From contig NZ_CAKZNK010000082.1 in NCBI RefSeq assembly GCF_937129525.1, positions 1-41,712 of the forward strand: a stretch of DNA of 41,712 nucleotides. The letters are read 5' to 3'. Each line of letters opens with the position of its first letter. Within the stretch, counting starts at the first letter, position 1. This stretch comes from an uncultured Chloroflexus sp. (GTDB lineage Bacteria > Chloroflexota > Chloroflexia > Chloroflexales > Chloroflexaceae). This document shows, piece after piece, positions 5,275 to 29,483 of this stretch. Below the pieces are notes generated by a model. It was not told the origin of the DNA. It worked only from the letters and a program-made list of their open reading frames with translations, and searched no databases. Made by a program: the position numbers and the translations under genes.

Positions 5275-6951
5275 TTATCTGTCACGCAGCGCAATGACGC
5301 GATAAATTGTAACCGTCTCATTTTCATACACTACCTGCACATCTTCGCTGCTTTGCTGCTGAAAAGCCTGACGTGAGCCGTCTTTGTCTCGCATCACGAC
5401 ATACGATACGTCGAATTCGGTCAAAATCTGCCGGCGCTGCTCTGGCGGCGTGGTCGGATCGAGAACAATCCGCACATTGTCACGTTTGACAAAGAAATCA
5501 AGCGTGCCGGCCCAGTGGGCAAGGTAGGCTCGCGCATCGCTCCAGACCGGCACAAATTGGCCAAATTCGATCTCGGCCAGCGTCACATCGTTGATAGTCG
5601 TGTGGCGCTGGAGCCATTGCAAGGCAGCGATCTCGTCGTTGGTCAAGTAGTGCGGTTGTTCGTAACGCGACAGATAGACGAAACGCCAGCTTTGTATGTA
5701 CACATTGGTGACCATACTGAGACCAAAAACAGCGATCATTCCAACCACGAGCGCCGTTCGTCCTCGCTGGCGCAGACGTGGAATCAGGCGTTCGTCGATA
5801 AACCGCGCTGCCAGCAGCATCATCGGTACCTGTAAGCCGAGCAGCATGTGAATTTGAAACTTGAGCGGTAGATACATCAGCGCGAAGTGGATGACAAACC
5901 ACGAAACCAGAAAGATCTCACGATCATCGTTGCTGCGAAACATTTGACGGCGCAGTCCAGCCAGGGCCAGGATCAACGGCACCCCCAGCAGGATGACCAG
6001 CAGTGCCGGATTGGGCGTAAAAACGCCGGCGTTATCGAATTGATCGAGTTTGCGCCCCCAGGTTGGTTCACTGGTGACCAGATAAGCCAGATAGAGCGCC
6101 CCCGGCGCCGAAAAGATTGCCAGAATGACACCCTGTTGGAAGAGGAGGGTGGGGAAGCGACGGTCACGCCACCAGATCAGCAAGCCGAAGAGACCCAGGG
6201 CCCCGTAGACAATCAAGAGATCGTAGGCGTGTTGAAGCGCTAACACCGCTCCCACAATACCCGCCGCTACAGCGTAACGTGATTGCTTTCGCTGCCATGC
6301 CAGCAGCATAAGGCTGAAAATAGTGATGATCAGCGCCAGGGCCATCGTGAAGTGCGGGAAGGCTTGCATGATCGCCAGGGTGTTCGGCTCGACCGTGTAG
6401 ATGCTGATCGGGAAGGGCGCTTCAGGCAAACCGGCCAGGTATTTGACCACAATCCAGATCACTCCCAACCCACTACCGGTGCAGATTAGCCAGAATGCGA
6501 TCTGGCGCTGGCGGGAATGGTCATTGATCAGCGGTAAAAAGATGAGCAGACTCCCCAAGAGTGAAAGAATGGCAATCAGCCGCAGGATAGTGTATGCCGT
6601 GATGTATGAGATACCGGTTATGACGCTTAACCGGGCAGTTGCCCACCAGAGTAAGTTGAAGAATGCCGGTTCGTTTACCTCCGGCGTTAGTCGGTTGGCA
6701 GCCAGGTTGGCCTGCGTAAAGCTGCGCATCCAGGCAAAATACTGGTTGTGATCCGGCACTCCGTCGATCACGCCCATAAACTGCCGATCCGGTGGCGCTG
6801 TGACGAACGCAAACACAATCGGCGCCCAAATCACCAGCATCAGACCGAGAATGACAAATCCGTAAAAGCGCCCTTCCGCCGCGTTGATGCTCAGCCGCGG
6901 TTCGACACGCTGGCTCGTCGCGCTCAGATTGGTCGGTTGCGAGATGGCCAT
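5275..6951 (-). CDS. Polytopic membrane protein, GT-C glycosyltransferase-like
   Basis: A 558-aa protein with a cytoplasmic N-terminus, a first membrane segment at about 30-50, a loop containing DGVPDHNQYFAWMRS (Asp67/His68) and roughly ten more hydrophobic segments. A soluble C-terminal tail follows (about 445-558, including WLQRHTTINDVTLAE). Architecture matches GT-C enzymes and the large uncharacterised membrane proteins found with them. It lies last in the glycan operon, 21 bases after the Asp-box protein, with AGGAG 8 bases before its ATG. Assignment as a transferase is by architecture and context, not a full motif match. Confidence 0.6.
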   Translation of the reverse strand: MAISQPTNLSATSQRVEPRLSINAAEGRFYGFVILGLMLVIWAPIVFAFVTAPPDRQFMGVIDGVPDHNQYFAWMRSFTQANLAANRLTPEVNEPAFFNLLWWATARLSVITGISYITAYTILRLIAILSLLGSLLIFLPLINDHSRQRQIAFWLICTGSGLGVIWIVVKYLAGLPEAPFPISIYTVEPNTLAIMQAFPHFTMALALIITIFSLMLLAWQRKQSRYAVAAGIVGAVLALQHAYDLLIVYGALGLFGLLIWWRDRRFPTLLFQQGVILAIFSAPGALYLAYLVTSEPTWGRKLDQFDNAGVFTPNPALLVILLGVPLILALAGLRRQMFRSNDDREIFLVSWFVIHFALMYLPLKFQIHMLLGLQVPMMLLAARFIDERLIPRLRQRGRTALVVGMIAVFGLSMVTNVYIQSWRFVYLSRYEQPHYLTNDEIAALQWLQRHTTINDVTLAEIEFGQFVPVWSDARAYLAHWAGTLDFFVKRDNVRIVLDPTTPPEQRRQILTEFDVSYVVMRDKDGSRQAFQQQSSEDVQVVYENETVTIYRVIALRDR

Positions 6952-6972
6952 CGCAATGCTCCTGCTGGTCTC

Positions 6973-8619
6973 TTATGGTCGGCGTGACCGTATGACCATA
7001 ATGAAACCGGTAATTGCGCCAATTCCAATGACTGTTAAGGCCAGTGCCGCGCCGATAGCCTCTAATCCGTGTAGCTCCCAACGCACTGGTTCTTGCAACG
7101 CCGGAGCGTTGCGAATCTCGTCGGGTAGCGCAATCGGCGTAGCCGTCGGCGCAACGGCTACGGCGGCGATTGTGGTTGGCGTCGCCGGTAACGGTGTTGG
7201 CGTGAAGAGTGGCAGGCCTGGACGGGCCGGTAGATTGAGTTGCGCAGTGCTATACCAGATCTGGTGAATCGCCCGCTCTTCGAGCCTGTCGCTATCGCTG
7301 CTAAATAGCTTTGATCGGGTAAACCAGACCGCATGAAGCTGATTGCCGTTGTAGATCTCCAGTCGGGGTAATTCCGGGTAGAGGTTGCTTTGCATGACGA
7401 TGCCCGGCGTCAGCCAGCGTGTTCCGTCGAAGGTCATGTGAATCAGGGCTGGTGGTCTGTTTGAATCAACAACCCCGGTAAAACCGGTGATCAGCGCATG
7501 CACGTTGTTGGCGCTATCGCTGACCAGGCTGTAGTAGTCGAGATTGTTGTCTTCAATATTGCGGGCGCGCACATAAGGGATCTCAACTGCTGCCGTCCAG
7601 GTGTTGCCGCCATCCAGTGAGCGCTGAAAGTAGAGACGATCGTTGCGAACTCCACGATAGATCACAAAGGGATTTCCGGCGCTATCCACGGTCAACGCGA
7701 TTTGCTGCACCGCCTCAAGCGGTGGCCCCTGCAGATCGCTCGCTCCGCGTAGTTGCTGGCGTATGGCCTGTACAGTTGTTGGCGGCAGGCTAAACTTGAC
7801 CGGTTCAGTCCACGTCAATCCGCCATCGTCAGAGCGGCGGTAAACCCCATAGTGCGGTTGCCCCTGCCCGGCATACCAGTCTGCTCCTTCATCCCAAACC
7901 ACATGAATCCGATTGAATGCATCGACCAACACCTGCGGACGATTGTCGCCATCCTCACTCTGCGAGAGATTGACAACCGGTGACCAGGTGTTGCCGCCAT
8001 CGATAGAGCGACGGTAGAAGAGTTCGCCGCACTGGTAACAGCGTGGATTGGTATTTTCGGTCACAATATCGCTCCAAAAGGCATGCAGACCGCCATGCAG
8101 ATCGGCTGCCAGCGCCACGTAATAGCCCGAATCGCTGATCAAGCGCTCGTCTGACCAGGCTTGTGGTTGGTCAGCGTCATCCCATCTGGCGCGCGCATAG
8201 CGAATTTGAGTGCCGGCCCGGTAGAGCAGATGTAGATTGCCATCGCGACCGAGCGCAATGCCGGCGCGCACTGTATAGCCGCCGACCCCGGGCGCAATCA
8301 ATTCACGCACCGGAGTCCAAGAACCATCGGCGTTACGGCGACGATATATCAGCAGATCAATTGTGCCACCCGCCCGTTGATCAACGATGAGACCACCGTA
8401 CCAGACGATATGCAGACTACCATCCGGCCCTAATGCTGTATCGGGCAGCCACGACCAGCCGTATCGGCGCTCCAGTTGTTCCAACGGCGCCTGACCGTAT
8501 TGCAATGGTGAAATTTCAATCGGCTTCGACCAGAATCCCTGACTGTGGGCAGAACCACTGTAGCCGATACCGATCAAAGCAGAGCACATGAGGAGGATAA
8601 GCGCCAGCCGTATCTTCAT
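6973..8619 (-). CDS. Membrane-anchored sialidase-like (Asp-box/BNR) protein
   Basis: A 548-aa protein with an N-terminal signal peptide (about 1-26, ending SAHS-QG), a beta-propeller-like body and a single C-terminal membrane anchor (about 525-545) with a short basic tail (RSRRP). Three Asp boxes are readable: SIDGGNTW (205-212), SDDGGLTW (263-270) and SLDGGNTW (334-341). The fold is that of exo-sialidases, but a full arginine triad and tyrosine nucleophile could not be identified, so glycosidase activity is not established. A Pro/Thr linker (about 475-505) precedes the anchor. Its ATG overlaps the stop of the ligase gene (ATGA), so the two are translationally coupled. A role in trimming or binding the exported glycan is inferred from position. 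Confidence 0.72.
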   Translation of the reverse strand: MKIRLALILLMCSALIGIGYSGSAHSQGFWSKPIEISPLQYGQAPLEQLERRYGWSWLPDTALGPDGSLHIVWYGGLIVDQRAGGTIDLLIYRRRNADGSWTPVRELIAPGVGGYTVRAGIALGRDGNLHLLYRAGTQIRYARARWDDADQPQAWSDERLISDSGYYVALAADLHGGLHAFWSDIVTENTNPRCYQCGELFYRRSIDGGNTWSPVVNLSQSEDGDNRPQVLVDAFNRIHVVWDEGADWYAGQGQPHYGVYRRSDDGGLTWTEPVKFSLPPTTVQAIRQQLRGASDLQGPPLEAVQQIALTVDSAGNPFVIYRGVRNDRLYFQRSLDGGNTWTAAVEIPYVRARNIEDNNLDYYSLVSDSANNVHALITGFTGVVDSNRPPALIHMTFDGTRWLTPGIVMQSNLYPELPRLEIYNGNQLHAVWFTRSKLFSSDSDRLEERAIHQIWYSTAQLNLPARPGLPLFTPTPLPATPTTIAAVAVAPTATPIALPDEIRNAPALQEPVRWELHGLEAIGAALALTVIGIGAITGFIMVIRSRRP

Positions 8620-10028
8620 GCCGCCTCACCCCGCTGCGACAATTGATGCACGCTGATAAGCAGCCCGACAAAGACCCAGCTATACATCGCGTGCTTGTAG
8701 CCGGCCACAGTCTGATTGTACAGAAAGGGCAAGATCCAGTCGCCAAGCATCATCGCCGCCTGAGCAGCCATCCATCCGGCAGTGGCGATGATCGCAGTCG
8801 CGCGCAAGAGGCCAGGCGGGGCCAGTTTGATCGCGCGCCAGCCGTACCAGAGGCTGGCGATCACAAACCACAACCAGATTCCCAGACCAACTACGCCAAA
8901 CTGCGCCAGAATATCAAAATAGTTGTTGTGGGTCGAGCGCGCATCATCGCGAAAGTAGGTCATATTGTAAGGCGCATAACCGGCAACGCCGGTGCCAAAT
9001 AACCAGTGCTGCTGCGCCACCCAGAGATTGCGCTGCCAGATTTCCAATCTGCCCAGGCCGCCTTCTTCAATATTGTCGTTGATCACCTGATCGAGATAGT
9101 GGCGCCCAGGTCCAACCGCAAGATTCAACGCAGCAATAATAACGAGAATGAAAAAGATGCGGCGGGAAGCAAAGAACGACATGACCAGCAATCCGATCAG
9201 GGTTGGCAGCCAGCCTGAAATCCAGAGTGAGTTACGCACCGCTGCCAGCCAGAGATGCCACACCAGAAGCGCGCTCCCGGCCAGTCGCCACCCCCAGTGG
9301 ATGTTCGGCATGAGATAACAGACCCCCGCCAGTGGGAGCGCAAACCATAGCCCCCACAACCCGGCATCGGTCAAAAAACCATGATTGATGCTAAAAGTTT
9401 GGGCTGCGGTCATCAACCCGCCACAAACGATGAACATGCCAAGATAGGCTTTGATCTGCCATTCGTGCTGAATGAACCGGCCTACCAGCAGGGGTGTCCA
9501 CATCAATCCCAGAAATGACAGGAGCGAAGCAATCTGCGCCAGGCGAAAGTTGCCCATGATGTACCAGTTGAGAATCGGATCTGACCACAACAGCCCCCAT
9601 ACGGTCGAAACCATGGTGATCCCCATGAGGGCTATCAGCGGTTTGTTAAGCGGTGATGGTACCAGTTGCCAGCGTTGCCGCTTGATCATGGTCAGAATCC
9701 AGATTCCGACCAGCGCCAGCGTCAAGAGCATGCTGATCGGTAATTCGCTGCCATTCCCCGCCGGCACTGCCAGCGGACGCATAGCCAGGCCGGTGAGTGG
9801 AAGCATGAGCACAAACCACTCAAACCGATAGAGAATGAGCGTTAACCCGATGATCCCAAGCGGCGCTGCGGTCAGCGCCAGCGCTACTAACTGGCGTCCA
9901 CTGCCAAACAGCGCGCCAATGATTGCACTGTAGAGCGCAATTCCACTCACGACTCCGCCGATGAGCAGCGGTCGCGGGATGCGTTCGAGCCATGTCGGTG
10001 TTTCGATGCGACTGAGCAGCGATGCCAT
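8616..10028 (-). CDS. O-antigen ligase/polymerase-like membrane protein (Wzy_C family)
   Basis: A 470-aa protein with about eleven hydrophobic segments. The diagnostic feature is the periplasmic-side sequence RSTHNNYFDILAQFG (His367 in an HNxY-type motif) after a long loop, plus the upstream Arg265 in VRNSLW. Both are typical of WaaL ligases and Wzy polymerases, which join or polymerise lipid-linked oligosaccharides outside the membrane. Ligase and polymerase cannot be told apart by sequence. Because members of this phylum are not known to make lipid A-based LPS, polymerase or protein/lipid-linked ligation is more likely. The gene sits in the glycan operon between a GT2 gene (12-base gap) and the Asp-box gene (4-base overlap). 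Confidence 0.78.
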   Translation of the reverse strand: MASLLSRIETPTWLERIPRPLLIGGVVSGIALYSAIIGALFGSGRQLVALALTAAPLGIIGLTLILYRFEWFVLMLPLTGLAMRPLAVPAGNGSELPISMLLTLALVGIWILTMIKRQRWQLVPSPLNKPLIALMGITMVSTVWGLLWSDPILNWYIMGNFRLAQIASLLSFLGLMWTPLLVGRFIQHEWQIKAYLGMFIVCGGLMTAAQTFSINHGFLTDAGLWGLWFALPLAGVCYLMPNIHWGWRLAGSALLVWHLWLAAVRNSLWISGWLPTLIGLLVMSFFASRRIFFILVIIAALNLAVGPGRHYLDQVINDNIEEGGLGRLEIWQRNLWVAQQHWLFGTGVAGYAPYNMTYFRDDARSTHNNYFDILAQFGVVGLGIWLWFVIASLWYGWRAIKLAPPGLLRATAIIATAGWMAAQAAMMLGDWILPFLYNQTVAGYKHAMYSWVFVGLLISVHQLSQRGEAA

Positions 10029-10040
10029 GCGATCAGACCT

Positions 10041-10982
10041 TTAGAAACGTTCTGGGAGCAGTGGTTGTTGCACTCTGCGCCCAATTGCCGCCCACAGCCA
10101 GCCGCCATCGCGCACAAACAGCTTACCGAGCGGATGGTAACCACCACCGAGTATCAGCAGCAGGCTACCCAGTGTCAGTTTGCCGAAGAAGATCATCTGC
10201 AATCCTATGCTGAGCGTAAGCGTCATGACTTTGCCGTAATGTTTGGCGAAAAAGCGCAGTTTGCTGAAGTAGAGTTCAGCTTTCATGCGCGTTGCTGCCT
10301 GTTTACTGCTCTGGCCGCCAAAATGGATGATGCGAGCCGACGGTACATAACAGATCGGCCATCCCGCGCGTTTGATCCGATAACACCAGTCTACTTCCTC
10401 AGTATACATAAAATACGACTCGTCGAGCAGACCGACCTGCCTGACCACTTCCCGCCGCAACAACATTGCTGCGCCGTCGAGCCAGTCGGTTTCGTAAGCC
10501 GGTGTTCCATCTCTGGTTGGATAAGGCTTTCGCCAGCGAATTTTTTTGCCGGTCAGTTCGGTCAACAAATTGGGAAACAATGCCCACGATGGTTGCAATG
10601 AGCCATCCGCATTCAAGAGCTGGGGGCCGGCGACCCCGATCTCTGGATGCGCGTCAAGAAACCAAACCAGATCGGCAATCGATCCCGGTTGCGCCACCGT
10701 ATCGCTGTTGAGCAAGAAGATATAGCGCCCGCTACTGGCCCGAATTGCCTGATTGTTGGCAGTCGCGAAGCCGCGATTGTCAGGATTGGCAATAATAAAG
10801 ACCTCCGGAAACGCCGCTGCGACGGCGGCAACGCTCCCATCGTGTGAACCGTTATCGACGACCCATATTTCAGGCTCGATTCCAGCAGTTGCTGCCGGTA
10901 GTGCCGCCAGGCAATCGAGCAGCAGTTGCCGGGTATTCCAGTTGACGATAACGATACTGACATCAGGGATGGGCCATGACAT
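10041..10982 (-). CDS. Family 2 glycosyltransferase (rhamnosyltransferase/WbbL-like)
   Basis: A 313-aa inverting GT-A enzyme. Visible motifs are SIVIVNWN (9-16), VVDNGSHDGS (41-50), the metal-binding NSD (92-94), DGAAMLLRR and the YTEEVDWCYR segment typical of rhamnosyl- and related transferases. A hydrophobic C-terminal stretch (SIGLQMIFFGKLTLGSLLLIL) suggests membrane association. The start at 10982 gives the family-length N-terminus and has AGAGGA upstream; a codon 24 bases earlier would add eight unlikely residues. It overlaps the upstream GT4 gene by 20 bases, so the two are co-translated. The sugar and linkage cannot be read from sequence. Confidence 0.8.
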   Translation of the reverse strand: MSWPIPDVSIVIVNWNTRQLLLDCLAALPAATAGIEPEIWVVDNGSHDGSVAAVAAAFPEVFIIANPDNRGFATANNQAIRASSGRYIFLLNSDTVAQPGSIADLVWFLDAHPEIGVAGPQLLNADGSLQPSWALFPNLLTELTGKKIRWRKPYPTRDGTPAYETDWLDGAAMLLRREVVRQVGLLDESYFMYTEEVDWCYRIKRAGWPICYVPSARIIHFGGQSSKQAATRMKAELYFSKLRFFAKHYGKVMTLTLSIGLQMIFFGKLTLGSLLLILGGGYHPLGKLFVRDGGWLWAAIGRRVQQPLLPERF

Positions 10983-12180
10983 AGCGCTGTGTCCTCTGAT
11001 TAACAATCGTTTCCAGTAGATCGTGCAACGCCGGAATGATCACCTGCCAGTCATAGCGTTCGGCGACGACTTTCTGGCCGGCTTCGCCGAGCTGTCGCGC
11101 CAGCGACGGATTGGCAAGCAGGCGACTGACCTTACCGGCAAAATCTATCGGTGTGTCGGCAATCAGCAAGTGTTTTCCATCTTCGAGGCGCAACCCTTCG
11201 GCGCCTTTGCTGGTGCTGACTACCGGTACTCCCAGCGCCAGCGCTTCCAGAATCTTCAGCCGCGTGCCACCACCCTCGCGAAGCGGTACCACTTCGAGCA
11301 TATGCTGCGCAATCACCTGCCGAATGTCGGTCACATAACCGGTAAACTCAACGCCGGGCAACGCAGGTAATGCTGCGCGTTGTTCGTCGGTTACAGGGCC
11401 GGTGATGCGAAAGCGCGCCTGAGGATGCCAGGCGCGAATCAGGAGCCAGATCTGGCTGAGGAAGAAGCTAACAGCGTCAAGGTTCGCGCTGTATGAGAGC
11501 GCGCCCGGATAGATCAATGTGTTAATCTGAGGCTGATAGCTGTATGCGGCGCATGCGCCGGCATCAACGCCATTGGAGATGATTGCTATCTGCGTCGTAT
11601 GATTACCGGCTACCTGTCGGATCAAATCGGCTTCGCGTTCCGAGACGGTGGTCACGGCCTGAAATGAAGGAAGCAATGCGGCAACATAACGCCGATACTG
11701 GAGGGCCGTCAATAAACTGCGCAACCGACGCAGACCGGTTTGTCGCCGGTAATCTTCCAGAATCGTAGCCAGTTCAAGTTCTTCCAGAACTGCTGGCAAA
11801 TGAGGTGTCAACCGGGCGTACAGCGCAACATCGATCTGTAAGGCCAGCACAACATCCGGCTGCCAGCGTTTTGCTGCCTGCAAGACAGCGTTGGCAAACT
11901 CTTGACTCCAGCGGACCCGGATCGACGCCGGTTTGACGCTGGTCAGGCTGATCAGCCGATCGGTAACTGTGAGCCGGCGGTCAGGCCGATGAAAGGCCCG
12001 CCACGACCGGCAGAGTCGGCTGATCTCGTTTGCCTGCACCTCTGCCGGCGATCCCTGGCTAAATGCCAGCAGATGGAGTTCGTGCCGGGCAGCCAGATTG
12101 CGCAAGATCGCCATCGCGCGCATCCGCGAGCCATTGTCATCGGGTTCCGGCCACCATGTCGAGAGGATAAGGATACGCAT
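10963..12180 (-). CDS. Family 4 glycosyltransferase
   Basis: A 405-aa GT-B retaining transferase. The N-terminal acceptor domain begins MRILILSTWWPEPDDNGSRMR, and the donor domain carries SNGVD (202-206), YPGALSY, a GYVTDI turn and the sugar-nucleotide site PLREGGGTRLKILEAL (299-314) followed by GVPVVSTSKGAEGL. AGAGGAG precedes the ATG. Upstream is a 114-base gap without its own clear promoter, so it probably belongs to the same long transcript. It adds one sugar of the repeat unit on the cytoplasmic face. Confidence 0.82.
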   Translation of the reverse strand: MRILILSTWWPEPDDNGSRMRAMAILRNLAARHELHLLAFSQGSPAEVQANEISRLCRSWRAFHRPDRRLTVTDRLISLTSVKPASIRVRWSQEFANAVLQAAKRWQPDVVLALQIDVALYARLTPHLPAVLEELELATILEDYRRQTGLRRLRSLLTALQYRRYVAALLPSFQAVTTVSEREADLIRQVAGNHTTQIAIISNGVDAGACAAYSYQPQINTLIYPGALSYSANLDAVSFFLSQIWLLIRAWHPQARFRITGPVTDEQRAALPALPGVEFTGYVTDIRQVIAQHMLEVVPLREGGGTRLKILEALALGVPVVSTSKGAEGLRLEDGKHLLIADTPIDFAGKVSRLLANPSLARQLGEAGQKVVAERYDWQVIIPALHDLLETIVNQRTQRYVMAHP

Positions 12181-12294: not shown

Positions 12295-13485
12295 TCACGG
12301 CGCCGTTCCAATCCAGACCCTGGCGCGATCATCGCGCGCGACTGCTGCATAGTAGGCGGCCAGCGTTTGTCGAGCTGTCTGCTGCCAGGAAAATTGTTGC
12401 GCGCGCCGCCAGCCGGCCTGACGCAACCGTTCGGCCACTTCCGGATCGCCGAGTACGGCGGTAAGATGGCGGGCCAGGGTCTGTTCATCCTCGGCATCGC
12501 CGATCAATCCTGCTTCACCCACCACTTCCGGGATCGCGCCGCGATCCGAAGCGATCACCGGCGCGCCACAGATCATTGCCTCTAGCAGGGGAATGCCAAA
12601 CCCTTCAAACCATGACGGAAAGACAAACGCCGCCGCCATTGAGAACAGAGCGATCAGGTCTGATCGCGGCGGTCGCAGGATCAGGCGAGCGTAGCCGGCC
12701 TCAACCGCTGCCCGCGCTGCTGGCCACGGTTCTCGTCGGGCAAAAAAGACAATCTCATACCGCGCGCGCAAGTCTGCCGGCAAAAGTGGCCAGGCTCGCG
12801 CCAGCACAGCCGGGTTTTTCAGCCCGTCGGCCAGCGCAAATGGTCGCTGTAAACCGTACCGTTGCCGCACCTCGTTAAGCGCGCGCTCGTCAGTAATCCG
12901 CCGAATGTCAGGCGGTGGGCCGTGTGGTGTCACCGTGATAGCCGCTGCATCATAGTGACAGTAGCGCAGAATGTCGTTGCGCGCATGGTGTGACACCGTT
13001 AGAAGCCTGCGCGCTTGCCTGACTGCGCGCCGTGTCATTACATGAAGATAGGTCATCATTGCAATCGAGCGCGGGTCTTTGTTGTGACCGGCGATAATCT
13101 CATGCCAGGGCATCACGTTGATCGCATCGTGCAATGTGATCACCGTTGCCGCGCCAGGCGGACCAAATCCGTAATTAGCCGGGAAATGCGCCACGTCGAT
13201 CCGATCCGCTGCCATTGCTCGTCGCAGACCCAGGATGTCGTTGCTGATACTCGATAACGCATTTCGGTATGGCAGAATGCGAAGCGTTACGTTAGCCGGT
13301 AGCTCGCGTAGCTCAAACGGCGCTTTAGCGTCGGCGTACAGCACGAATTGCTCACGACTGCCGACGGCGAAGAGCGCCGGCAACAGGTTGGTGAGATAGG
13401 TATGAATGCCTCCTACCAGCCCATGCGAGAGGTAGCGGGCATCAATGCCGATCCGCAGCGGTCGCCTGATCGAATGGTCGGCCAT
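12295..13485 (-). CDS. Family 4 glycosyltransferase
   Basis: A 396-aa GT-B enzyme. It begins MADHSIRRPLRIGIDARYLSHG and has GGIHTYLTNLL (glycine-rich acceptor-side loop), HFPANYGFGPPG, LTVSHHARNDI and the complete E-x7-E donor motif EGFGIPLLE (Glu294 and Glu302), followed by APVIASDRGAIPEVVG. The start at 13485 is chosen because AGGAG lies 9 bases before it, whereas a start three codons earlier would touch the ribosome site. The family includes mannosyl- and N-acetylhexosaminyl-transferases; the actual sugar is unknown. Confidence 0.82.
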   Translation of the reverse strand: MADHSIRRPLRIGIDARYLSHGLVGGIHTYLTNLLPALFAVGSREQFVLYADAKAPFELRELPANVTLRILPYRNALSSISNDILGLRRAMAADRIDVAHFPANYGFGPPGAATVITLHDAINVMPWHEIIAGHNKDPRSIAMMTYLHVMTRRAVRQARRLLTVSHHARNDILRYCHYDAAAITVTPHGPPPDIRRITDERALNEVRQRYGLQRPFALADGLKNPAVLARAWPLLPADLRARYEIVFFARREPWPAARAAVEAGYARLILRPPRSDLIALFSMAAAFVFPSWFEGFGIPLLEAMICGAPVIASDRGAIPEVVGEAGLIGDAEDEQTLARHLTAVLGDPEVAERLRQAGWRRAQQFSWQQTARQTLAAYYAAVARDDRARVWIGTAP

Positions 13486-13506
13486 GCTTGTCATCTCCTA
13501 TCCGGA

Positions 13507-18321: not shown

Positions 18322-18412
18322 AGCTCTAACCTACCATTCCCTCTTAACATCCTGCTAAACAGAGAACTGTCGCGAGATGACTCCATCGTCACCCCGCTTC
18401 CTGCACGCGCTA

Positions 18413-19579: not shown

Positions 19580-19615
19580 GACGTTTCCTCCTGACGGCAT
19601 CCCGCGTTGACGGGC

Positions 19616-22097: not shown

Positions 22098-24044
22098 TCA
22101 ACTATAATCGATGATCACCTGTTGTTGTCCACTGACCAGTCTTACGGCTCGATATGTCTTGCCGGCAATCGTCCGTTGCTGTTGCGCCTGACGGTTATCG
22201 GCGACCTGTACGGCCCGTAAGCGAGTATGGCGATGGCTTTCCGGGATGAGAAGCGTGAGTGGCAGCGGTGCAGACGGAGTGGTCATTACACCGCTCAGTC
22301 GTTGCCCATTCCAGTTAAGATCGCTGAAATCGCTCTGATTGCGCGCATTGATGAAGCGGAGCCAGCGTTCGGCAGCCATGATCGGAATACGCGCCCCCTC
22401 AGCGTAAGCCAGTGTCGCATCGAGCCAGTGCGCGACTTCACCGGCAATCGGCTCACCCAGCAAGAATGGGTCAACATGGCATTGCAAACCAAACGCCGTC
22501 GGATAGCGATCGATCCCGGCGGCTACCAGCGCAATAGTCTGCGCTGCTGCGCCGGCGCCATCCAATCCAACCTCGTAGCCGGTTTGAAACACCGGCATCA
22601 GATGCTCATCAACCAGATGGGTCGCCTGCTGATAGACATCAATCACAGTGCCGGTTTCATCAACAAACCGCAGTGGCAAGCCACTCCCATTCAGATAGCC
22701 CATCGTCCACGTACCATCGGCTTTACGCACCGTCGGGCCGCTATGGTAGTGATCAAGATTCATGCGAATGCCATATGCAGCCTGCACCACGGCATTCTTG
22801 ACCCAACCGTGCCAGAGAATGCGGTGAGTGCGCACAGTAGGCGGTACCGGGCCGTAGCCGAGTTTTAGAAATTCGCTCCAGTGCCGGTAATACCCCTCCG
22901 CCAGACCATGTTCAACATATGGATGCATACCGAACTCATGGCCGCGCTCGCGCCAGGCGGCGACGTGATACGGTGCCGGTAGCGGATCATCACCGCCAAT
23001 GTGAGAGCCGATCAGCGGTGTCTGACCGAGCATCCAGCGCAGCTTACGCGCCAGTCTGCCATTTGCATCAGTCGGTGGTGGCGTGTAGTAGATCGAAGCC
23101 GTACCGCTATGTCGTTCGACGATGCGGAGCAGTTGTTCGATGTGGCTGACTCGACTGCCATGAGCGTCGCCGGTAGCGATAATTGCGCTCGGTGCGTTAT
23201 CTGGCAAATACCAGAGCCGTAGCAACGGTACCGGACTGACTTCTTCTATCATGCGGCTCAAAAGCCGCTGGTGCTCATCAGCTTGCGGGATCGCAATTCG
23301 CTCCAGATCGATCCATCCTGTAAACAGATCGCTGGCCCGCACGCCATCCATCCCATCCCGCTCCAGATTGCTCCAGGTCGGATTACCCTGTCGGATCAGC
23401 GCAATCGTCCGCGCCAGGTCAAACGTCCACAGCGCGGCCATGCCGGCCCCGAATCGATGTATCGTCACCAGCGGATCGCCGTTGCCACTCGTTGCGACGA
23501 TCTCCGCGCCACGCAATTCGATTCGGTCATAGACGGTATGGAGCTGAAGCGGTCCACTTATTCCGGTCGCTGCTGTCGGTTTGAAGAAATCGTTAATCCG
23601 CGCCGTGCCGGTGTAAGCAACCCCAAACACGTCGGCCAGCGCCGGATCAGGTCGGATTCCAATCAATCCCCCGCCAGCGCTGACAAACTGGCGTAGCCAC
23701 TCTTTCCCTTCGGTACCGAGTGGTGTCGAACCCAGTACGACTACGGCGCCTTCAATCGGTCGATCAAGCTGGCGCAACCTGATCTGGCGCAGACCGAGCC
23801 ATCCCTCCGCTCGCAGAATTTCGCCCAGATAAGCAGTGAAATCAGGCCGTGGCGCCGGGTCGGTAACCAGCAAGAGTGGCGCCACGCCGTTGACCGGCGC
23901 TATCTCAACAGGGTACGAGGTCAGGTTCGGTTCCGACAGCGGCCAGTGCTCGGCACTGTATGTAGCGAGGGCCCCCAAACCGGCAGCAGTCAACATACCG
24001 GTCAAAAAGGTTCGTCTCGTAACCGATCGGTACAGATAGTGCAT
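22098..24044 (-). CDS. Tat-exported polysaccharide-deacetylase-like protein
   Basis: A 648-aa protein starting with a twin-arginine signal (VTRRTFLTGMLTAAGLGALA, RR at 10-11). Residues about 50-245 resemble a glutamine-amidotransferase/ThuA-like alpha/beta domain (VVVLGSTPLGTEGKEWLRQFVSAGGGLIGI). The C-terminal part from about 285 resembles carbohydrate esterase family 4 barrels: IIATGDAHGSR (Asp293, His295) at the first metal-motif position, and GHEFGMHPYVEH (His369, His374, His379) where a metal-binding His motif would be. The usual TFDDG motif is altered to TGDAHG, so activity is unproven. Tat export would fit a protein that folds with a cofactor before export. The gap to the upstream Wzz-like gene is 11 bases. 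Confidence 0.65.
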   Translation of the reverse strand: MHYLYRSVTRRTFLTGMLTAAGLGALATYSAEHWPLSEPNLTSYPVEIAPVNGVAPLLLVTDPAPRPDFTAYLGEILRAEGWLGLRQIRLRQLDRPIEGAVVVLGSTPLGTEGKEWLRQFVSAGGGLIGIRPDPALADVFGVAYTGTARINDFFKPTAATGISGPLQLHTVYDRIELRGAEIVATSGNGDPLVTIHRFGAGMAALWTFDLARTIALIRQGNPTWSNLERDGMDGVRASDLFTGWIDLERIAIPQADEHQRLLSRMIEEVSPVPLLRLWYLPDNAPSAIIATGDAHGSRVSHIEQLLRIVERHSGTASIYYTPPPTDANGRLARKLRWMLGQTPLIGSHIGGDDPLPAPYHVAAWRERGHEFGMHPYVEHGLAEGYYRHWSEFLKLGYGPVPPTVRTHRILWHGWVKNAVVQAAYGIRMNLDHYHSGPTVRKADGTWTMGYLNGSGLPLRFVDETGTVIDVYQQATHLVDEHLMPVFQTGYEVGLDGAGAAAQTIALVAAGIDRYPTAFGLQCHVDPFLLGEPIAGEVAHWLDATLAYAEGARIPIMAAERWLRFINARNQSDFSDLNWNGQRLSGVMTTPSAPLPLTLLIPESHRHTRLRAVQVADNRQAQQQRTIAGKTYRAVRLVSGQQQVIIDYS

Positions 24045-24055: not shown

Positions 24056-26092
24056 TCAGGTTCGGCGCCGGCGGCTATCGCGCGTTCGTCGGCGACGGAC
24101 TTTTGGTGATGCTGGTAATACAGTTTCTTCGCTGGCGGCAATTTGTGTGTTGACTGGAATATGGCGCGCTTCTCCCACTGCGCGAGCCTGCCTTGCCTCA
24201 AGCGGTTCATCATGTGGGCGCGCGAGGGCTTCACCCACCGCGCGGGTAAGGCCGATCTCAACCGATTCGTGCCTCTGCTCTGCTTCGTTTACCGACATCG
24301 TAACGACGATCGAGTCATCAGCGGGTGATGGCGTGATGATAATACGCCGGTCGTCTCCCGTTGGCATTGCGATCGTTTGGGAAGCGGCATCTATCGGCTC
24401 AATCGGTTGCTGAATAACGTTGGCTTCAGCTTCGGTGTGCTGAGTATCGTGTTCAGCTTGCTGATCGAGATTGTTTCCAGTCTGCGCTGTTTTGCCGGGA
24501 TACAGTAATCGTAACGGCGTATCGCTCAATAGCCAGCGCAATGTGGGGAGCGGTAGGCGTGGCCGATCCGCTTGCGGGAGAACGAATTCATCGGTCAGCA
24601 TCACCGCGCCGAGCACGCTGTCAGTTCGTTTCAACGTCAGACGTTTCAGGCTCTGCTGAATGTCAAGACTGCTATCTGCATCTGGCTTAAGCGCGAGCAC
24701 AACCCCATCGACCAGCGGAGCCAGCAGCGCCGCTTCAACACCGCTTAAGGTTGATGGCCCATCAAAGATCAGGATGTCAGCGGCGCGTTGCAAGCCCTCG
24801 ACCAGTACCGGCCACGGTTGTGATGGCGGCAATGGCCGACCCGATTCGTCAGTGTTGCGCGCCAGCAGCAATACGTGTTTTAGCGGCGTTGCCTGTAAGC
24901 TTGACCAGACCTGCGCTTCGCCTTCAATCGTGATGGGTTGCAGAACTTTGCTCGTATCGCCGAAAAGGTTACTGAGGGTTGCCTGCTCGGTTTCGGCGTC
25001 AACCAGCAATACCCGATAACCAGATAACGTGTAGCAGTACGCCAGGTCAACGACCAGGGCGCTACGTTGATCTGATGGTCGCGGCCCGCTCACCATCAAT
25101 ATGCGAGCATTGCGTGGCAATCCGGCCAGGACAATCTGAGTATGCGCTTCTTTCACCGCCGAAGCGCGCATTTGGGCCGTTTCATCACTCAAACTGACCA
25201 ATGGTCGTCTACCCGGCACGTTACCGAGAAAGTTCAAGCCAAACCGACTCCGCAGGTCATTGTGATTACGCCAGCGCGTATCAATCGCTTCTAGCCCAAA
25301 CGATGCGATCAGTCCCAATAACAATCCGGCCAGTCCGGCTATAGCAACGGTGAGATTGCGTTTATTCGGCAATGGAGCAGCCGGCGCCTGTGCCGCTTCA
25401 AAGATTGCCAGCGTGTTGACCAGGTTGGTGTTTTGCAAGCGCAATAATTGGGCATATGCATTTTGCGCATTGTTGAGCGACAGTTCAAGTTCCTGGAGCC
25501 GGTTACGCGCTTCGCGCAGGTCGGTCGCGCTTGTCGCCTGCGTAATCATGTCGCGGGTCTGCTCGATCTGGCGTTCGAGAAAATCAATCTCACGCTGGCT
25601 GCGCTCGATCTGCTCATTCAGCAGGTTGCGCTGGGCTGCGATATTCTCAGGTGAATTCGGCCCGAACACAATCAGTTCACTGGCGATAGCATTGGCAATT
25701 GCTGCCGCGCGTTGCGGATTCGTATCGGTGATCGTTATTTCCAGCAAACTGGCCTGCCGATTGACGCCGGTTGACAGCATATAGGTGCTGATCACCTGCC
25801 ATGGAAATGGCAGAGCCAGCTTTTCCACTACCGGCGCTAAAATCACTGCGCGTTTCGCCATTTCGGCGTAAAAACCGGCAACCGTATTGCTCAGTCCCAG
25901 ACTTTGCGGATCGGGCGCTGCGGTTGAGAGCGTATCACCAACTCGCAAGGTTGCCCGGCTGACATAGTAGTCGGGCTGTCGCATCACAAAGATCAGTGCA
26001 GCTCCGGCGGCAAGGATAGTGGCAAGCGCGGCAACCCACCACCAGCGCAGCATGATACGGATGTATGACCAGATGTCGCTCCAAGTGAGCAT
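24056..26092 (-). CDS. Wzz-type chain-length protein fused to a degenerate tyrosine-kinase-like domain
   Basis: A 678-aa protein: membrane segment at about 17-36, Wzz domain with periplasmic loop, coiled coil (about 155-222), second membrane segment (about 247-266), then a cytoplasmic P-loop-like domain. In place of Walker A GxxxxGK(S/T) it has SGPRPSDQRSA (335-345), with no Lys; Walker A' (VLLVDAE, 361-367) and Walker B (LIFDGP, 441-446) remain. There is no tyrosine cluster at the C-terminus, which is instead very basic (RRRRTRDSRRRRT). It therefore looks like a bacterial tyrosine kinase/Wzc relative that has lost kinase function and may act as a structural chain-length regulator. The start has GAGGAG 7 bases upstream; a start 63 bases earlier would overlap the previous gene. 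Confidence 0.78.
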   Translation of the reverse strand: MLTWSDIWSYIRIMLRWWWVAALATILAAGAALIFVMRQPDYYVSRATLRVGDTLSTAAPDPQSLGLSNTVAGFYAEMAKRAVILAPVVEKLALPFPWQVISTYMLSTGVNRQASLLEITITDTNPQRAAAIANAIASELIVFGPNSPENIAAQRNLLNEQIERSQREIDFLERQIEQTRDMITQATSATDLREARNRLQELELSLNNAQNAYAQLLRLQNTNLVNTLAIFEAAQAPAAPLPNKRNLTVAIAGLAGLLLGLIASFGLEAIDTRWRNHNDLRSRFGLNFLGNVPGRRPLVSLSDETAQMRASAVKEAHTQIVLAGLPRNARILMVSGPRPSDQRSALVVDLAYCYTLSGYRVLLVDAETEQATLSNLFGDTSKVLQPITIEGEAQVWSSLQATPLKHVLLLARNTDESGRPLPPSQPWPVLVEGLQRAADILIFDGPSTLSGVEAALLAPLVDGVVLALKPDADSSLDIQQSLKRLTLKRTDSVLGAVMLTDEFVLPQADRPRLPLPTLRWLLSDTPLRLLYPGKTAQTGNNLDQQAEHDTQHTEAEANVIQQPIEPIDAASQTIAMPTGDDRRIIITPSPADDSIVVTMSVNEAEQRHESVEIGLTRAVGEALARPHDEPLEARQARAVGEARHIPVNTQIAASEETVLPASPKVRRRRTRDSRRRRT

Positions 26093-26102
26093 GATTCTCT
26101 CC

Positions 26103-27680
26103 TCAATTTGAACCAGAGACGGGTAAAATGACCAGATCGCCCGCTTCCAGTCCACTTATGATCTCAACTTTGCCATCAGCTACCAGCCCGATCTGCACGT
26201 CAACTCGTTGCGGACCCTGTTCGGTTGGCACCAACACGTAGGTTCCACCATCGCGTCGAATGGCTTCCAGTGGTAGCCAGCGCGCGCCTTCGCGTTGACC
26301 AAAATCAATCGTCACCAGCGCCGGATCGCCAATAACCAGCGGGAGATCGCCACAATCGCAGGCAATCTGTAATTCCGTCCCCTGGAGCGGATTGGCCATC
26401 GTTATCGTTTTGCGAACAACGCCACTGAAGGTGCGTCCGGGGTAACGCACAAACTGCACCGCAACCCTTGCGCCATCGGGAATTCGCTGAAGATCATCAC
26501 TACTCAGGCCGCTGACGGTGACCTGGAGGCCCGAGTTATCCATCAGTCGCAAGACCGGCACTTCGGCCTCTACCGGAAACCCCACCAGCGCTTCGATAGC
26601 GGTAATCGAGCCATCAAACGGCGCGTAAATGCGCCGATCTTCGATCTGACGCTCAATCGACTTAATTGCCAGTTCGGAAGCTGCCAGGCTCTTAACCAGC
26701 AACGGATCGGGCGCGGTGCGCTGTCGCGCGGCATCAAGCTGTATCTGTGCCTGCTGCACCGCTCGCTGAGCAGCCGCAACTTCAAATGGATCGGGGCCAT
26801 TGAGCAGACGCTCAAGCCGGGTGCGGGCCAGCGTAACATCGGCTTCGGCGGCCTGCACCGCCGCAATCTCGTTGCCGCGCGCCGTGTCGAGTTCGATTTG
26901 AGCCAGCGCCACGGCGCTCTCGGCAGCGCGCAATTCCACCGATAATCGATCAACCAGCGCGCGAACTTCGGGGGTGTCTTCTACCTCCAGTCGGGCGCGG
27001 GCATTACCGTAAGCCTCCTGAACCCGCTGCAATTCGGCGACCCGGTCGGCCAGGGTCCGTTCGGCCCGTGTCTTTACTGCCGAGGCGTCATTGCGCGCGC
27101 GGGCCAGCGCCGCCTCCGCTCGTTGCAATGCGGCGCGCGCTTCTGCGATCTCGGTCGGCGAGGCCGGTGCTGTGAGTTCGGCTAGCCGATCACGGGCTGA
27201 CTCCAGCGCCACTTCAGCCGCGCGCACCTCAATTTGCGCGCGCGCTGTCGCCTGCTCAATCGTCCGCCGATCCTGTTCGGCATTGATCTTCGCCTGGCGC
27301 AGTTGATCTTCGAGTGTGCCAAGATCGATCTCGGCCAGCAACTGACCGGTCTGAACCTGCGCGCCAACTTCAACGTACAGGTTCCGCAGTACCCCACTCT
27401 GACGAAATGCCAGACCACGCTCCAACACCGGAGTCACCTGGCCGCTCAACTCGCGGCGATCGGCGAAAGTTCCGACCGCAACGGCCACCGTTCGTTCAAC
27501 AACAGCCGGTTCGGTTGGTGTCGGCACAACCGCGACCGCAGTTGGCTCAGGCGTTGGTGGTGGCGTCCAGGGTTCGGGTGTCGGCGCGCCGACCAGTGAA
27601 CCAATGCTACAGCCACTCAGCCCAATTGCAAGTCCGATCGCCAGGATATAACGAACGGCAAGGTATACATAGCGTTCCAT
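26103..27680 (-). CDS. HlyD/membrane-fusion-type lipoprotein
   Basis: A 525-aa protein with a lipobox (LSGC, Cys24), a Pro/Thr-rich linker (about 31-60), a biotinyl-lipoyl-like first half (SGQVTPVLERGLAFRQSGVLRNLYVEVGAQVQTGQLLAEID), a long alpha-helical hairpin (about 125-335, heptad-rich, with many Arg/Ala/Glu), the second lipoyl half (IYAPFDGSITAIEALVGFPVEAEVPVLRL) and a beta-barrel end. This is the membrane-fusion adaptor fold. No ABC or RND pump gene accompanies it; instead it is followed at an 10-base gap by the Wzz-like gene, which suggests a role in envelope or glycan export. The transported substrate is not known. Confidence 0.78.
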   Translation of the reverse strand: MERYVYLAVRYILAIGLAIGLSGCSIGSLVGAPTPEPWTPPPTPEPTAVAVVPTPTEPAVVERTVAVAVGTFADRRELSGQVTPVLERGLAFRQSGVLRNLYVEVGAQVQTGQLLAEIDLGTLEDQLRQAKINAEQDRRTIEQATARAQIEVRAAEVALESARDRLAELTAPASPTEIAEARAALQRAEAALARARNDASAVKTRAERTLADRVAELQRVQEAYGNARARLEVEDTPEVRALVDRLSVELRAAESAVALAQIELDTARGNEIAAVQAAEADVTLARTRLERLLNGPDPFEVAAAQRAVQQAQIQLDAARQRTAPDPLLVKSLAASELAIKSIERQIEDRRIYAPFDGSITAIEALVGFPVEAEVPVLRLMDNSGLQVTVSGLSSDDLQRIPDGARVAVQFVRYPGRTFSGVVRKTITMANPLQGTELQIACDCGDLPLVIGDPALVTIDFGQREGARWLPLEAIRRDGGTYVLVPTEQGPQRVDVQIGLVADGKVEIISGLEAGDLVILPVSGSN

Positions 27681-27692
27681 ACGTTCCTCTGG

Positions 27693-28298
27693 TCATTGGG
27701 GTGCCATCAGTGTGCCTGCTGCCAGCGGCAAGGCCACAGTCGGCGCGCGCGTCGTCTCTTCAACCAGTATCCAGCGCGCTGCGTCAAGCAGATCGGACGC
27801 AATATGATCTGGCTGATAGCGTCGCAATTCCGGCTTGCGTAGTTCGTCGGTGCCGCGTCCGCTCTTAACAAGGATGGTCTGACATCCCATCTGCTTGCCG
27901 GCAGCGATGTCACTCAGCGCGTCACCAACAAGATACGCCTGGCGACAGTCGATCCGATACCTTGCCGCCAGGTCCTCCAGCATACCCGGTTGCGGTTTGC
28001 GACAACGACACTGTTCTTCCGGTCGATGCGGGCAATACCGAATATCTTCGATCTGCGCGCCGTGATAAGCGGCGATCGCGCGCAAGCGCGCGTGAATCTG
28101 TTCAAGGGTGGCAATGGAAATCAATCCTCGCCCTACCGCAGCCTGATTCGTGATAATAAAGATGCGATAGCCGGTCTGACTGAGGAGACGTAACGCTGTC
28201 AAAGCTCCCGGCAGAAATTGAAACTCTTCCCAGTTTTTTACATGATCAGGGCGATTGTGATTAATAACGCCATCGCGGTCGAGAAAGACAGCGCGCAT
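27693..28298 (-). CDS. gmhB: D-glycero-D-manno-heptose-1,7-bisphosphate 7-phosphatase
   Basis: A 201-aa HAD-superfamily phosphatase: catalytic DRDG (Asp7, Asp9), IITNQAAVGRG (48-58, second HAD motif), a zinc-binding set YCPH...CRC (Cys89, His91, Cys97, Cys99), Lys101 and GDALSDIAAG (125-134, Asp126 and Asp130). Removes the 7-phosphate of heptose 1,7-bisphosphate in nucleotide-heptose synthesis. It heads the glycan operon, with a strong GGGGAGGGG ribosome site, and is divergent from the heptose kinase hddA, so the pathway is partly co-located. A histidinol-phosphatase-like paralogue is the main alternative, but the neighbouring kinase favours the heptose enzyme. Confidence 0.85.
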   Translation of the reverse strand: MRAVFLDRDGVINHNRPDHVKNWEEFQFLPGALTALRLLSQTGYRIFIITNQAAVGRGLISIATLEQIHARLRAIAAYHGAQIEDIRYCPHRPEEQCRCRKPQPGMLEDLAARYRIDCRQAYLVGDALSDIAAGKQMGCQTILVKSGRGTDELRKPELRRYQPDHIASDLLDAARWILVEETTRAPTVALPLAAGTLMAPQ

Positions 28299-28416
28299 GA
28301 GACCCCTCCCCTAGCGCTGCAAGCAGATGGAGACATAGTAAGCAGGTGGCAGGCTACGACAGGGTTACAGTACATCGTTTTGCTGAAGATCTGCTAACAG
28401 GGTTAGGAATGAATTG

Positions 28417-28430
28417 TGACAATCTTGTCA
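28417..28430. promoter_or_regulatory. Inverted repeat in the gmhB/hddA divergent region
   Basis: TGACAA-TC-TTGTCA, perfect 6-base arms with a 2-base spacer, lies in the 198-base region between the divergent gmhB and hddA genes. It could be an operator controlling both directions, or its right arm (TTGTCA) may serve as a -35 element for hddA, although no well-spaced -10 follows. The rest of the region (28299-28496) shows no gene. Confidence 0.35.
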
Positions 28431-28496
28431 TTTTGCTCTGGTAATGTGCCGATTATGCGTTACCATTGAACGAATTGCAGTCACAGGAGACAGGGT

Positions 28497-29483
28497 ATGA
28501 TTATTTCCAGGACACCATTGCGCATCAGTTTTACCGGCGGCGGCACCGATCTACCGGCTTTCTATCGCCACGAACCGGGCGCGGTAGTCAGCACTGCTAT
28601 CAACAAATATATCTACATCACGGTAAATGAGAAGTTCGATCATCAGATTCGCGCCAGCTATTCGATCACGGAAATTGTTGATCGCGTCGATGATCTCAAG
28701 CATCAACTGATCCGCGAGGCATTGCGGCTGGTCAATCGTCAGCACGCTATCGAGATCACCTCGATTTCCGACATTCCATCTCAGGGTACCGGCCTCGGTT
28801 CCTCCAGCACGTACACTGTTGGCCTGCTCAATGCCCTCTACGCCTTCACCGGTCGCTTTGTCGGCGCCGAGCGACTGGCGCGCGAAGCTTGCTATATCGA
28901 AATTGAGCGTTGCGGCGCGCCGATTGGGAAACAAGATCAGTACATTGCCGCATTTGGCGGACTACAATTTATTCAGTTTAATCCTGATGAAACGGTGTTT
29001 GTTGATCCAATCATCTGTCGGCCAGAGACGAAGCAGCGTCTTCAGCGTCGGCTCATAATGCTCTATACAGGTATCACGCGCAAAACCAACGATCTCCTGC
29101 GCGAACAGCGTGAAAACACGGAACGCGATGACAACCGTCGCCAGCATCTGCGTCGCATGGCGGCGCTGGCTCACGATTTGCGGGTCGCGCTGCAAAACGA
29201 TGATCTCGATGCGTTTGGCGAGATTTTACACGAAGGCTGGCTGCGCAAGCGCGAACTGGCCAGCGGCATTACCAACCCTCTAATCGATGAATGGTACGCG
29301 CGCGCGCGCGCCGCCGGCGCTGTCGGCGGCAAGATTCTCGGCGCCGGTGGCGGCGGGTTTTTGCTCCTCTATGCCCTCGAAGATCAACACGAAGCGATTC
29401 GCGCCGCTTTACCCGAGTTGCGCTATGTGCCCATGCAATTCGAACCCCAGGGCAGTAAAATTATCTACGTCGAAGAGACGTAG
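28497..29483 (+). CDS. hddA: D-glycero-alpha-D-manno-heptose 7-phosphate kinase (GHMP kinase)
   Basis: A 328-aa GHMP-family sugar kinase: ISRTPLRISFTGGGTDLP (3-20), the phosphate-binding motif GTGLGSSS (97-104), the substrate-side motif GAPIGKQDQY and the C-terminal GGKILGAGGGGF. The opening RTPLRISFTGGGTDLP and the overall length match HddA-type heptose kinases, which phosphorylate C1 of heptose 7-phosphate. ACAGGAGACAGGGT precedes the ATG, giving a ribosome site. Together with gmhB it supplies two consecutive steps of the GDP-D,D-heptose route; the isomerase and guanylyltransferase are not in the window. A fucose/mannose kinase-like relative is the alternative. Confidence 0.8.
   Translation: MIISRTPLRISFTGGGTDLPAFYRHEPGAVVSTAINKYIYITVNEKFDHQIRASYSITEIVDRVDDLKHQLIREALRLVNRQHAIEITSISDIPSQGTGLGSSSTYTVGLLNALYAFTGRFVGAERLAREACYIEIERCGAPIGKQDQYIAAFGGLQFIQFNPDETVFVDPIICRPETKQRLQRRLIMLYTGITRKTNDLLREQRENTERDDNRRQHLRRMAALAHDLRVALQNDDLDAFGEILHEGWLRKRELASGITNPLIDEWYARARAAGAVGGKILGAGGGGFLLLYALEDQHEAIRAALPELRYVPMQFEPQGSKIIYVEET

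Follow-up and report, generated by a model that had tools for sequence, protein, structure and literature searches.

We analyzed a 41,712-nucleotide stretch of DNA (the window) from an uncultured Chloroflexus sp., a hot-spring bacterium. The window is an entire contig (C82) from a draft assembly that totals 4.48 Mb over 157 contigs. The window contains a cluster of sixteen minus-strand genes (28298-5275) headed by gmhB, together with a divergent plus-strand hddA gene (28497-29483), and all of these reading frames are open as the initial annotation had stated. Heptose, a sugar of seven carbons, is familiar chiefly as a component of lipopolysaccharide (LPS), and the cluster had been put forward as a heptose-linked surface-glycan operon. 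We find that the window holds one half of a roughly 50-60 kb two-block locus, an arrangement seen in closed relatives, and that this is probably a conserved, heptose-linked surface-glycan locus of Chloroflexus and its order. The basis for this reading is gene content, conservation, family placement, co-occurrence across genomes and the adjacency of the two blocks in closed relatives. The locus is real, conserved and larger than the window; its parts are ordinary and its host is unusual.

The hddA gene, coding for an HddA-like GHMP kinase, is separated from gmhB (27693-28298, minus strand), coding for a HAD-IIIA heptose-1,7-bisphosphate 7-phosphatase, by 198 bases (28299-28496) that presumably hold divergent promoters, and a promoter scan found no consensus sigma-70 site within this intergenic region. 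Following gmhB on the minus strand are genes for a HlyD/RND-type adaptor that has a single hydrophobic segment near its N terminus (26103-27680; TIGR01730 123.7 bits, cut-off 94.9), a Wzz/Wzc-like co-polymerase (24056-26155, start possibly at 26092; TIGR01005 51.8, TIGR01007 42.0), a putative Agd3-like polysaccharide deacetylase with a Tat-like signal by eye (22098-24044), a polytopic membrane protein with 11 hydrophobic segments and a spermidine-synthase-like central domain (19616-22081; TIGR00417 22.8 only) and an HGSNAT/acyltransferase-3-like membrane acyltransferase (18413-19600; PF07786 37.3, PF01757 35.4). The remainder comprises a GT4-type glycosyltransferase (17212-18321; PF00534 56.6), a Wzx-type flippase (15770-17302; PF01943 96.5), a second GT4 (14427-15758; PF00534 103.2), a GT2 (13507-14430; PF00535 71.8), two further GT4 genes (12295-13494, PF00534 73.1; 10963-12180, PF13692 80.5, with TIGR03087 at 202.8, below its cut-off of 316.65), a second GT2 with a TTG start and a possible ATG at 10982 (10041-11006; PF00535 83.4), a Wzy polymerase/O-antigen ligase-like protein (8616-10028; PF04932 44.4), a BNR-repeat protein carrying a hydrophobic segment at either end (6973-8619; PF13088 28.7, below the cut-off of 31.4) and a GT-C-like polytopic membrane protein with 10 hydrophobic segments (5275-6951; PF10131 20.7, below the cut-off of 26.4).

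This inventory bears out the six glycosyltransferases (four GT4-like and two GT2-like), flippase, ligase/polymerase-like protein, adaptor and acyltransferase that had been proposed from the sequence. The proposed Wzz-like protein does have a Wzz-like part, but its family support is weak. For three proteins that had been left without a function, we can now offer a spermidine-synthase-like membrane protein (821 residues; structure model with a mean predicted local distance difference test (pLDDT) score of 39.9), a BNR-repeat protein (548 residues) and a GT-C-like protein (558 residues). A Pfam scan that took in 28 window proteins found no priming transferase among them, again as proposed.

The genes are tightly packed. 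When spacing is measured on longest-open-reading-frame starts, five of the 15 junctions overlap by 4-91 bases, eight are gaps of 11-21 bases and two are gaps of 91 and 114 bases, so that 13 of the 15 either overlap or lie no more than 21 bases apart; the many overlaps of 4 to 20 bases described earlier were thus overstated. Gene order was then compared in regions from ten relatives. Specifically, all sixteen genes plus hddA are present in order in G003 and in G004 (presumably C. aggregans), and G006 has the same arrangement minus one GT4 gene. The parts of the region that were fetched from G005 and G007 follow this order as well, with gmhB and hddA separated there by about 7.7 kb of additional genes; this insert, absent from the window, codes for a GT2, two GT-C-like membrane proteins and a protein of 774 residues. 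In G010 the order is kept without a recognizable first GT4 gene, about 9 kb of other genes being in its place, while G011, G018 and G025 retain parts of the cluster and the stretch examined in G037 shows hddA but no cluster. Conservation extends to a second family: the single-contig genome G030, presumably a Roseiflexus, shares sixteen genes of which 15 are in window order, a collinearity matched by none of 20,000 random gene orders. In G030, G013, G015, G036 and G039, hddA lies upstream of gmhB in the same direction.

One junction behaves differently. The 91-base gap between the acyltransferase and first GT4 genes (18322-18412) is about 190-420 bases by aligned ends in G003, G004 and G006, and is filled in G010 and G011 by further glycan genes spanning about 9 kb. 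This extra DNA and wider spacing in relatives make the cluster look like two cassettes, and a single transcript for all sixteen genes is therefore doubtful. The tight packing of the proposed sixteen-gene operon holds up and its gene order is conserved, but the unit is half of a larger locus and, in relatives, has a cassette boundary within it.

The other half was found on contig C61. The initial annotation had suggested looking in the flanking genome for three further genes: gmhA, hddC and one for a polyprenyl-phosphate sugar (priming) transferase. The isomerase and the priming transferase are both encoded in one block on this contig, but a dedicated hddC could not be identified. The genome has three SIS-domain genes, on C61, C141 and C114. 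Against a GmhA profile built from hddA loci (leave-one-out range 157-278, median 242) the C61 protein scores 233.2, and those of C141 (155.2) and C114 (167.4) fit less well; with TIGR00441 the C61 isomerase scores 119.0, below the cut-off of 209.45. The C61 priming transferase (492 residues) scores 412.5 with TIGR03025 (cut-off 295.55). About eighteen more genes make up the block, including DegT aminotransferase, Gfo/Idh oxidoreductase, radical-SAM and glycosyltransferase genes.

In the three closed genomes of the same genus that were examined, this block lies about 3 kb (G006), 10 kb (G004) and 15 kb (G003) from the window-type cluster, and the full locus spans about 49 kb, 58 kb and at least 60 kb, respectively. 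The block is in opposite orientation in G006. In G003 and G004, large proteins with signal-like starts are encoded in the interval that separates the blocks; in G006 such proteins lie beyond the second block. Copies of three C61 genes, 72-84% identical, are embedded in the homologous cluster in G015, G030, G036 or G039; G025 has the priming gene and other C61-type genes directly before its cluster; and in three genomes of other classes (G092, G151 and G233) genes of both blocks are intermixed, with C61-type genes beside the deacetylase. From this proximity and mixing in relatives, we take the two blocks to be parts of a single pathway. C61 and C82 are separate contigs in the assembly to which the window belongs, and the same adjacency is to be expected there by analogy with these relatives.

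Naming the kinase required an independent profile test, since the window HddA scores only 152.4 with NCBIfam NF049969, under that family's cut-off of 600. We built a profile from 39 HddA proteins of loci that also contain gmhA, gmhB and hddC, and the window protein scores 501.6 bits with it (leave-one-out range 404-504, median 484). A second HddA-like GHMP kinase of the same genome (C83; L074:8811-9929) scores 210.9; many of the 41 genomes compared here, some of them without GmhB, have similarly distant matches (30-38% identity to the window HddA). Among the best 80 of at least 575 confirmed HddA relatives, which are 45-88% identical and by record title come from many phyla, 68 have gmhA or gmhB nearby. 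The individual counts are 59 for gmhA, 51 for gmhB, 57 for an HddC-type gene and 39 for all three, with some loci cut by contig ends and with the HddC-type match, being to a broad nucleotidyltransferase family, the softest of the three counts. In a tree, an eight-sequence window clade nests within the 39 context-defined HddA proteins (support 0.90), whereas the kinases of G030, G036, G039, G013 and G015 form a separate HddA lineage outside the window clade's group (support 0.999). Two kinase lineages thus fill the same place beside gmhB, which argues that HddA activity is needed there. By sequence, the structure-database relatives of the window HddA are 3k85, 4usm, 4usk and 4n3o. Taken together, family placement indicates that the window kinase is an HddA-type heptose-7-phosphate kinase.

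The assignment of GmhB is more direct. The window protein scores 189.4 with NF006506, above the curated cut-off of 178, and on this family criterion is a GmhB; its structure-database relatives are 4pnh, 3l8h and 2gmw. Gene presence was compared over 41 genomes, eight of them of the genus Chloroflexus; 14 control genomes were used for HddC and LpxC. All eight Chloroflexus genomes have one clear GmhB copy, to which G004 adds a weak match (E 7.7e-4). Counting GmhB as present at 145 bits or more, and HddA as either an orthologue of at least 73% identity or a relative of 40-47% identity, 23 of the 41 genomes have both, three HddA only, seven GmhB only and eight neither (Fisher p 0.008; p 0.022 with one genome per genus). 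The same comparison with HldC, the adenylyltransferase of the adenosine diphosphate (ADP)-heptose pathway, gives 25 with both, ten with HldC only, five with GmhB only and one with neither (p 1.0; 0.62 per genus). The genomes are related and partly incomplete, and these p values are a guide only. G030, G036 and G039 have hddA and gmhB with no HldC match above 25 bits; the absence of HldC from G005 may be a draft gap, and the HldC of G023 is a partial match. Across the 41 genomes GmhB therefore follows HddA and not HldC. The earlier description of hddA and gmhB as consecutive heptose-pathway steps is supported as to the pair and as to its tie with a Wzx/Wzy-type glycan cluster, with heptose a putative constituent of the polymer.

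These families invite comparison with the guanosine diphosphate (GDP)-D,D-heptose pathway, for which we used the C. jejuni system as described in PMC10680097. The Chloroflexus locus resembles it in its HddA and GmhB families, in the GmhA-type isomerase of the linked block and in its surface-glycan gene neighbors, and appears to differ in having no dedicated HddC, in being split over two blocks and in a host without lipid A genes. The HddC profile assembled for this comparison holds 39 domains, most HddC-type frames elsewhere being longer and apparently fused to GmhB, with both matches within one frame. Two nucleotidyltransferases of the same genome, C22 (245.5) and C20 (229.4), fall within its leave-one-out range of 135-335. 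C20 scores higher, at 337.8, with the mannose-1-phosphate guanylyltransferase model NF052502, which is under that model's cut-off of 440. As no dedicated hddC is recognizable, we propose that activation proceeds via a nucleotidyltransferase encoded elsewhere. A separate nucleotidyltransferase gene, on C100 (42404-43981; L015:481-2178), is a single 565-residue frame with nucleotidyltransferase and priming-transferase (Bac_transf) domains, and several relatives within the genus have frames of 567-619 residues at the corresponding nucleotidyltransferase hits.

The remaining cluster proteins fit, with departures, the pattern of Wzx/Wzy-dependent heteropolysaccharide loci. The likeness lies in the flippase and Wzy-type protein within the cluster, the priming transferase of the C61 block, the glycosyltransferases and the Wzz/Wzc-like protein. 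In contrast to such loci, the Wzc-like kinase domain here has no P-loop, an HlyD adaptor is present and no outer-membrane export family was matched in Pfam scans of the window proteins and ten C61 proteins. The Walker A/P-loop motif is missing from the window copy and from all 14 relatives, and there is no tyrosine in the last 60 residues, so the features of an active BY-kinase, which not every such system has, were not found in this regulator; it appears to be a conserved pseudokinase co-polymerase.

The 648-residue protein that had been called deacetylase-like has no Pfam or NCBIfam match at E 0.001, but its structure model (mean pLDDT 65.5) aligns with Agd3, an exopolysaccharide deacetylase of three domains. 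The match to Agd3 (6nwz_A) has a Z score of 16.1 over 466 residues with most of the chain aligned, at a root-mean-square deviation (rmsd) of 9.0. Most higher-ranked structure matches cover the N-terminal ThuA/GATase-like domain, some with an extra stretch, and a Foldseek search returned human heparan-sulphate N-deacetylase over 574 columns (rmsd 16.1). Residues D293-x-H295, H369, H374, R405, R408 and H523 are invariant in all nine aligned rows. By comparison with Agd3, its carbohydrate esterase family CE18 and its bacterial operons (PMC7229062), the conserved D/H/R/H residues are shared and the domain arrangement along the chain may be as well; the CE18 motifs CM1 (DD) and CM2 (HXXXH) are not found and seem to be replaced by D293-x-H295 and H369-x4-H374, a comparison made on a middling model at the rmsd given above. 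With an E threshold of 1e-30, a profile of this protein has matches in 31 of 301 genomes from the phylum, and in 18 of these the match is full-length at 678 bits or more.

Several observations weigh against a heptose-linked locus and have to be set beside the evidence above. The NF049969 score of the kinase is far under its cut-off, and the NF049965 (HddC) cut-off is passed in none of the eight genus genomes, nor in any of the 14 controls. We considered taking these cut-off failures as absence of HddA and HddC and rejected this, as proteins encoded beside gmhA in genomes of the same taxonomic order fail as well: the HddA proteins of G034 and G028 score 187.0 and 164.9, and the HddC-type proteins of the hddA-gmhA-hddC operons in G031 and G034 only 87 and 101 bits with NF049965. 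None of the six window glycosyltransferases matches the classical heptosyltransferase family GT9 (PF01075) in the Pfam scan. The hddA-gmhB pairing is also imperfect, in that seven of the 41 genomes have GmhB without a window-like HddA, hddA stands without gmhB in G017, G022 and G023 (completeness 97, 88 and 71%), and the clear GmhB of G025 is on another contig. Near hddA in the stretches examined of G037 and G040, only generic GT4 matches from the cluster occur. The genome also has a GT9 gene, HldA-like and HldC-like genes and another native gene of the GmhA kind, so that gmhB could also serve ADP-heptose, and the heptose-bearing polymer itself is a prediction.

With these points in mind, we propose the following working of the two-block locus. 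Sedoheptulose-7-phosphate would be isomerized by the GmhA-type protein of the C61 block, after which HddA would phosphorylate the product at C1 and GmhB would remove the phosphate at C7. Activation would fall to a nucleotidyltransferase whose gene lies elsewhere, probably one of the mannose-1-phosphate guanylyltransferase type. The C61 priming transferase would start a lipid-linked unit that glycosyltransferases of both blocks extend, Wzx would flip this unit, and the Wzy-like protein may polymerize it under the Wzz/Wzc-like protein with its dead-looking kinase domain. Trimming outside the cell could be carried out by the Agd3-like deacetylase and the acyltransferase. In this scheme the enzyme activities, the nucleotide, the presence of heptose in the polymer, the choice between a polymerase and a ligase role and the final attachment are all predicted features.

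As to the destination of the polymer, LpxC was absent from all 41 genomes and present in four of the 14 controls, in agreement with the initial annotation's statement that the host's phylum is not known to make lipid A; LPS linked to lipid A is consequently an unlikely destination. A cryo-tomography study (PMC7332563) reports a failure to find crucial LPS genes in the order, an outer layer of unknown nature in C. aggregans and apparently none in R. castenholzii, and, for both species, the lack of a surface layer (S-layer) and a 30-50 nm amorphous external layer. If the species identities assumed above for G004 and G030 are true, the locus has been kept both with and apparently without an outer-membrane-like layer, in each case with an amorphous layer. 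Its presence in both lineages would then be easier to reconcile with that amorphous layer, or with a polysaccharide attached to the wall, than with a constituent of the outer layer. Going further, the two-block locus might produce an external coat conserved throughout the Chloroflexales, in which a polysaccharide bearing heptose replaces LPS in bacteria that lack lipid A, a reading that we offer only tentatively and consider rather unlikely. For the Chloroflexus outer envelope, where the same study describes a layer but neither LPS nor its genes (PMC7332563), the locus names about 37 candidate glycan genes, and it offers a rare, easily measured sugar as a marker along with gene targets in cultured strains. 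Should heptose be found, it would mean that bacteria without lipid A have retained the D,D-heptose branch to build a coat. No description of the locus was found in the titles and opening abstracts of open papers on Chloroflexus, Chloroflexi or Roseiflexus heptose or on Chloroflexus exopolysaccharide clusters and cell-wall chemistry.

Among other explanations, the one that survives best is that the locus glycosylates a surface protein, with the PF04932 protein acting as an O-oligosaccharyltransferase and the glycan placed on a large secreted protein or on the BNR protein. The large proteins with signal-like starts that accompany the blocks in G003, G004 and G006 would be candidate acceptors, heptose-containing S-layer glycans are established in Aneurinibacillus, and PF04932 covers polymerases and ligases alike. 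However, a Wzz/Wzc-like protein and an Agd3-like deacetylase are better suited to a long free polymer, and the absence of an S-layer from the two species just discussed also speaks against protein glycosylation, which we regard as rather unlikely.

Alternatively, gmhB could serve the ADP-heptose pathway, consisting of the GmhA of C141 with an HldA-like kinase on C143, an HldC-like adenylyltransferase on C105 and a GT9 protein on C45, its place within the glycan cluster and beside hddA being secondary. The HldA-like (298.3, cut-off 345) and HldC-like (170.3, cut-off 181.5) proteins are near their curated cut-offs, and within the genus the HldA-like and GT9 genes are present in eight of eight genomes and the HldC-like gene in seven. 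Family f3 (G026, G029, G032, G035 and G038) has GmhB and HldC without a window-like HddA. In C. jejuni, according to PMC10680097, the GmhB of the GDP branch is encoded in the ADP-heptose cluster, and such sharing is therefore possible in Chloroflexus. This alternative is countered by the ten of 41 genomes that have HldC without a clear GmhB (five at least 97% complete; the partial HldC of G023 scores 80.7 bits), by GmhB without HldC in G030, G033, G036 and G039, by the lack of any GmhB-HldC association, by GmhB accompanying hddA in two families whose hddA genes belong to separate lineages and by the scattering of the ADP-heptose genes over four contigs. Relative to the GmhA-HldE-GmhB-HldD pathway of LPS, the genome shares the GmhB and GmhA families and has split HldA-like and HldC-like genes, but it belongs to a group without LpxC in which GmhB follows HddA, and the sole full-length HldE of the genus (one of eight genomes) is on a contig of foreign composition. 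On balance we consider an ADP-heptose role for gmhB to be unlikely.

The short contig in question, C114 (L004:1-5265), carries a Wza-like export gene along with gmhA and a full-length hldE and was not counted as support because it looks foreign. Its tetranucleotide distance from the window is 0.265, against at most 0.190 for 27 equal-length pieces of the same genome, and it is likely contamination or a very recent transfer.

A further possibility is that the true substrate of both the kinase and the phosphatase is a different sugar phosphate and that the glycan has no heptose. The GHMP and HAD families are promiscuous, HddA is well below its curated cut-off and no HddC was recognized, but the profile and the tree place the kinase among proteins of gmhA, gmhB and hddC loci, GmhB is above its own cut-off and a GmhA of the same kind is present in the second block, which leaves another substrate very unlikely. 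That the sixteen genes are separate transcription units together by chance is least tenable of all, since their conserved order over two families and the 13 close junctions outweigh the two longer gaps and the variable acyltransferase/GT4 spacing in G003, G004, G006, G010 and G011.

Returning to the window, two plus-strand genes are associated with the heptose-linked cluster. At its end is a gene for a PMT_2-like GT-C protein (3742-5268; PF13231 23.1, below the cut-off of 26.1), which adjoins the cluster in G003 and G006 too. Following hddA is a gene for a CBM96-like protein (29513-30997; PF24517 30.9, cut-off 26), found no more than about 2 kb from hddA in six of the ten mapped relatives and also in the deacetylase/gmhA region of G233. 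In the window 29 bases separate it from hddA; the corresponding interval of G006 (joined region 26584-28342) is an apparent GC-rich repeat array with repetitive overlapping frames. Rfam and tRNA scans of the window gave no matches and terminator scans gave counts equal to those of shuffled sequence, while promoter scans gave a mild excess over shuffles (16 versus 11.1 and 7 versus 3.6). Finally, a subtilase (34819-36663) and a small protein (38444-39337) encoded elsewhere in the window share by eye a common repeat type, NGGL..FG.PIS.EF, which Pfam recognizes as LGFP in the second only.

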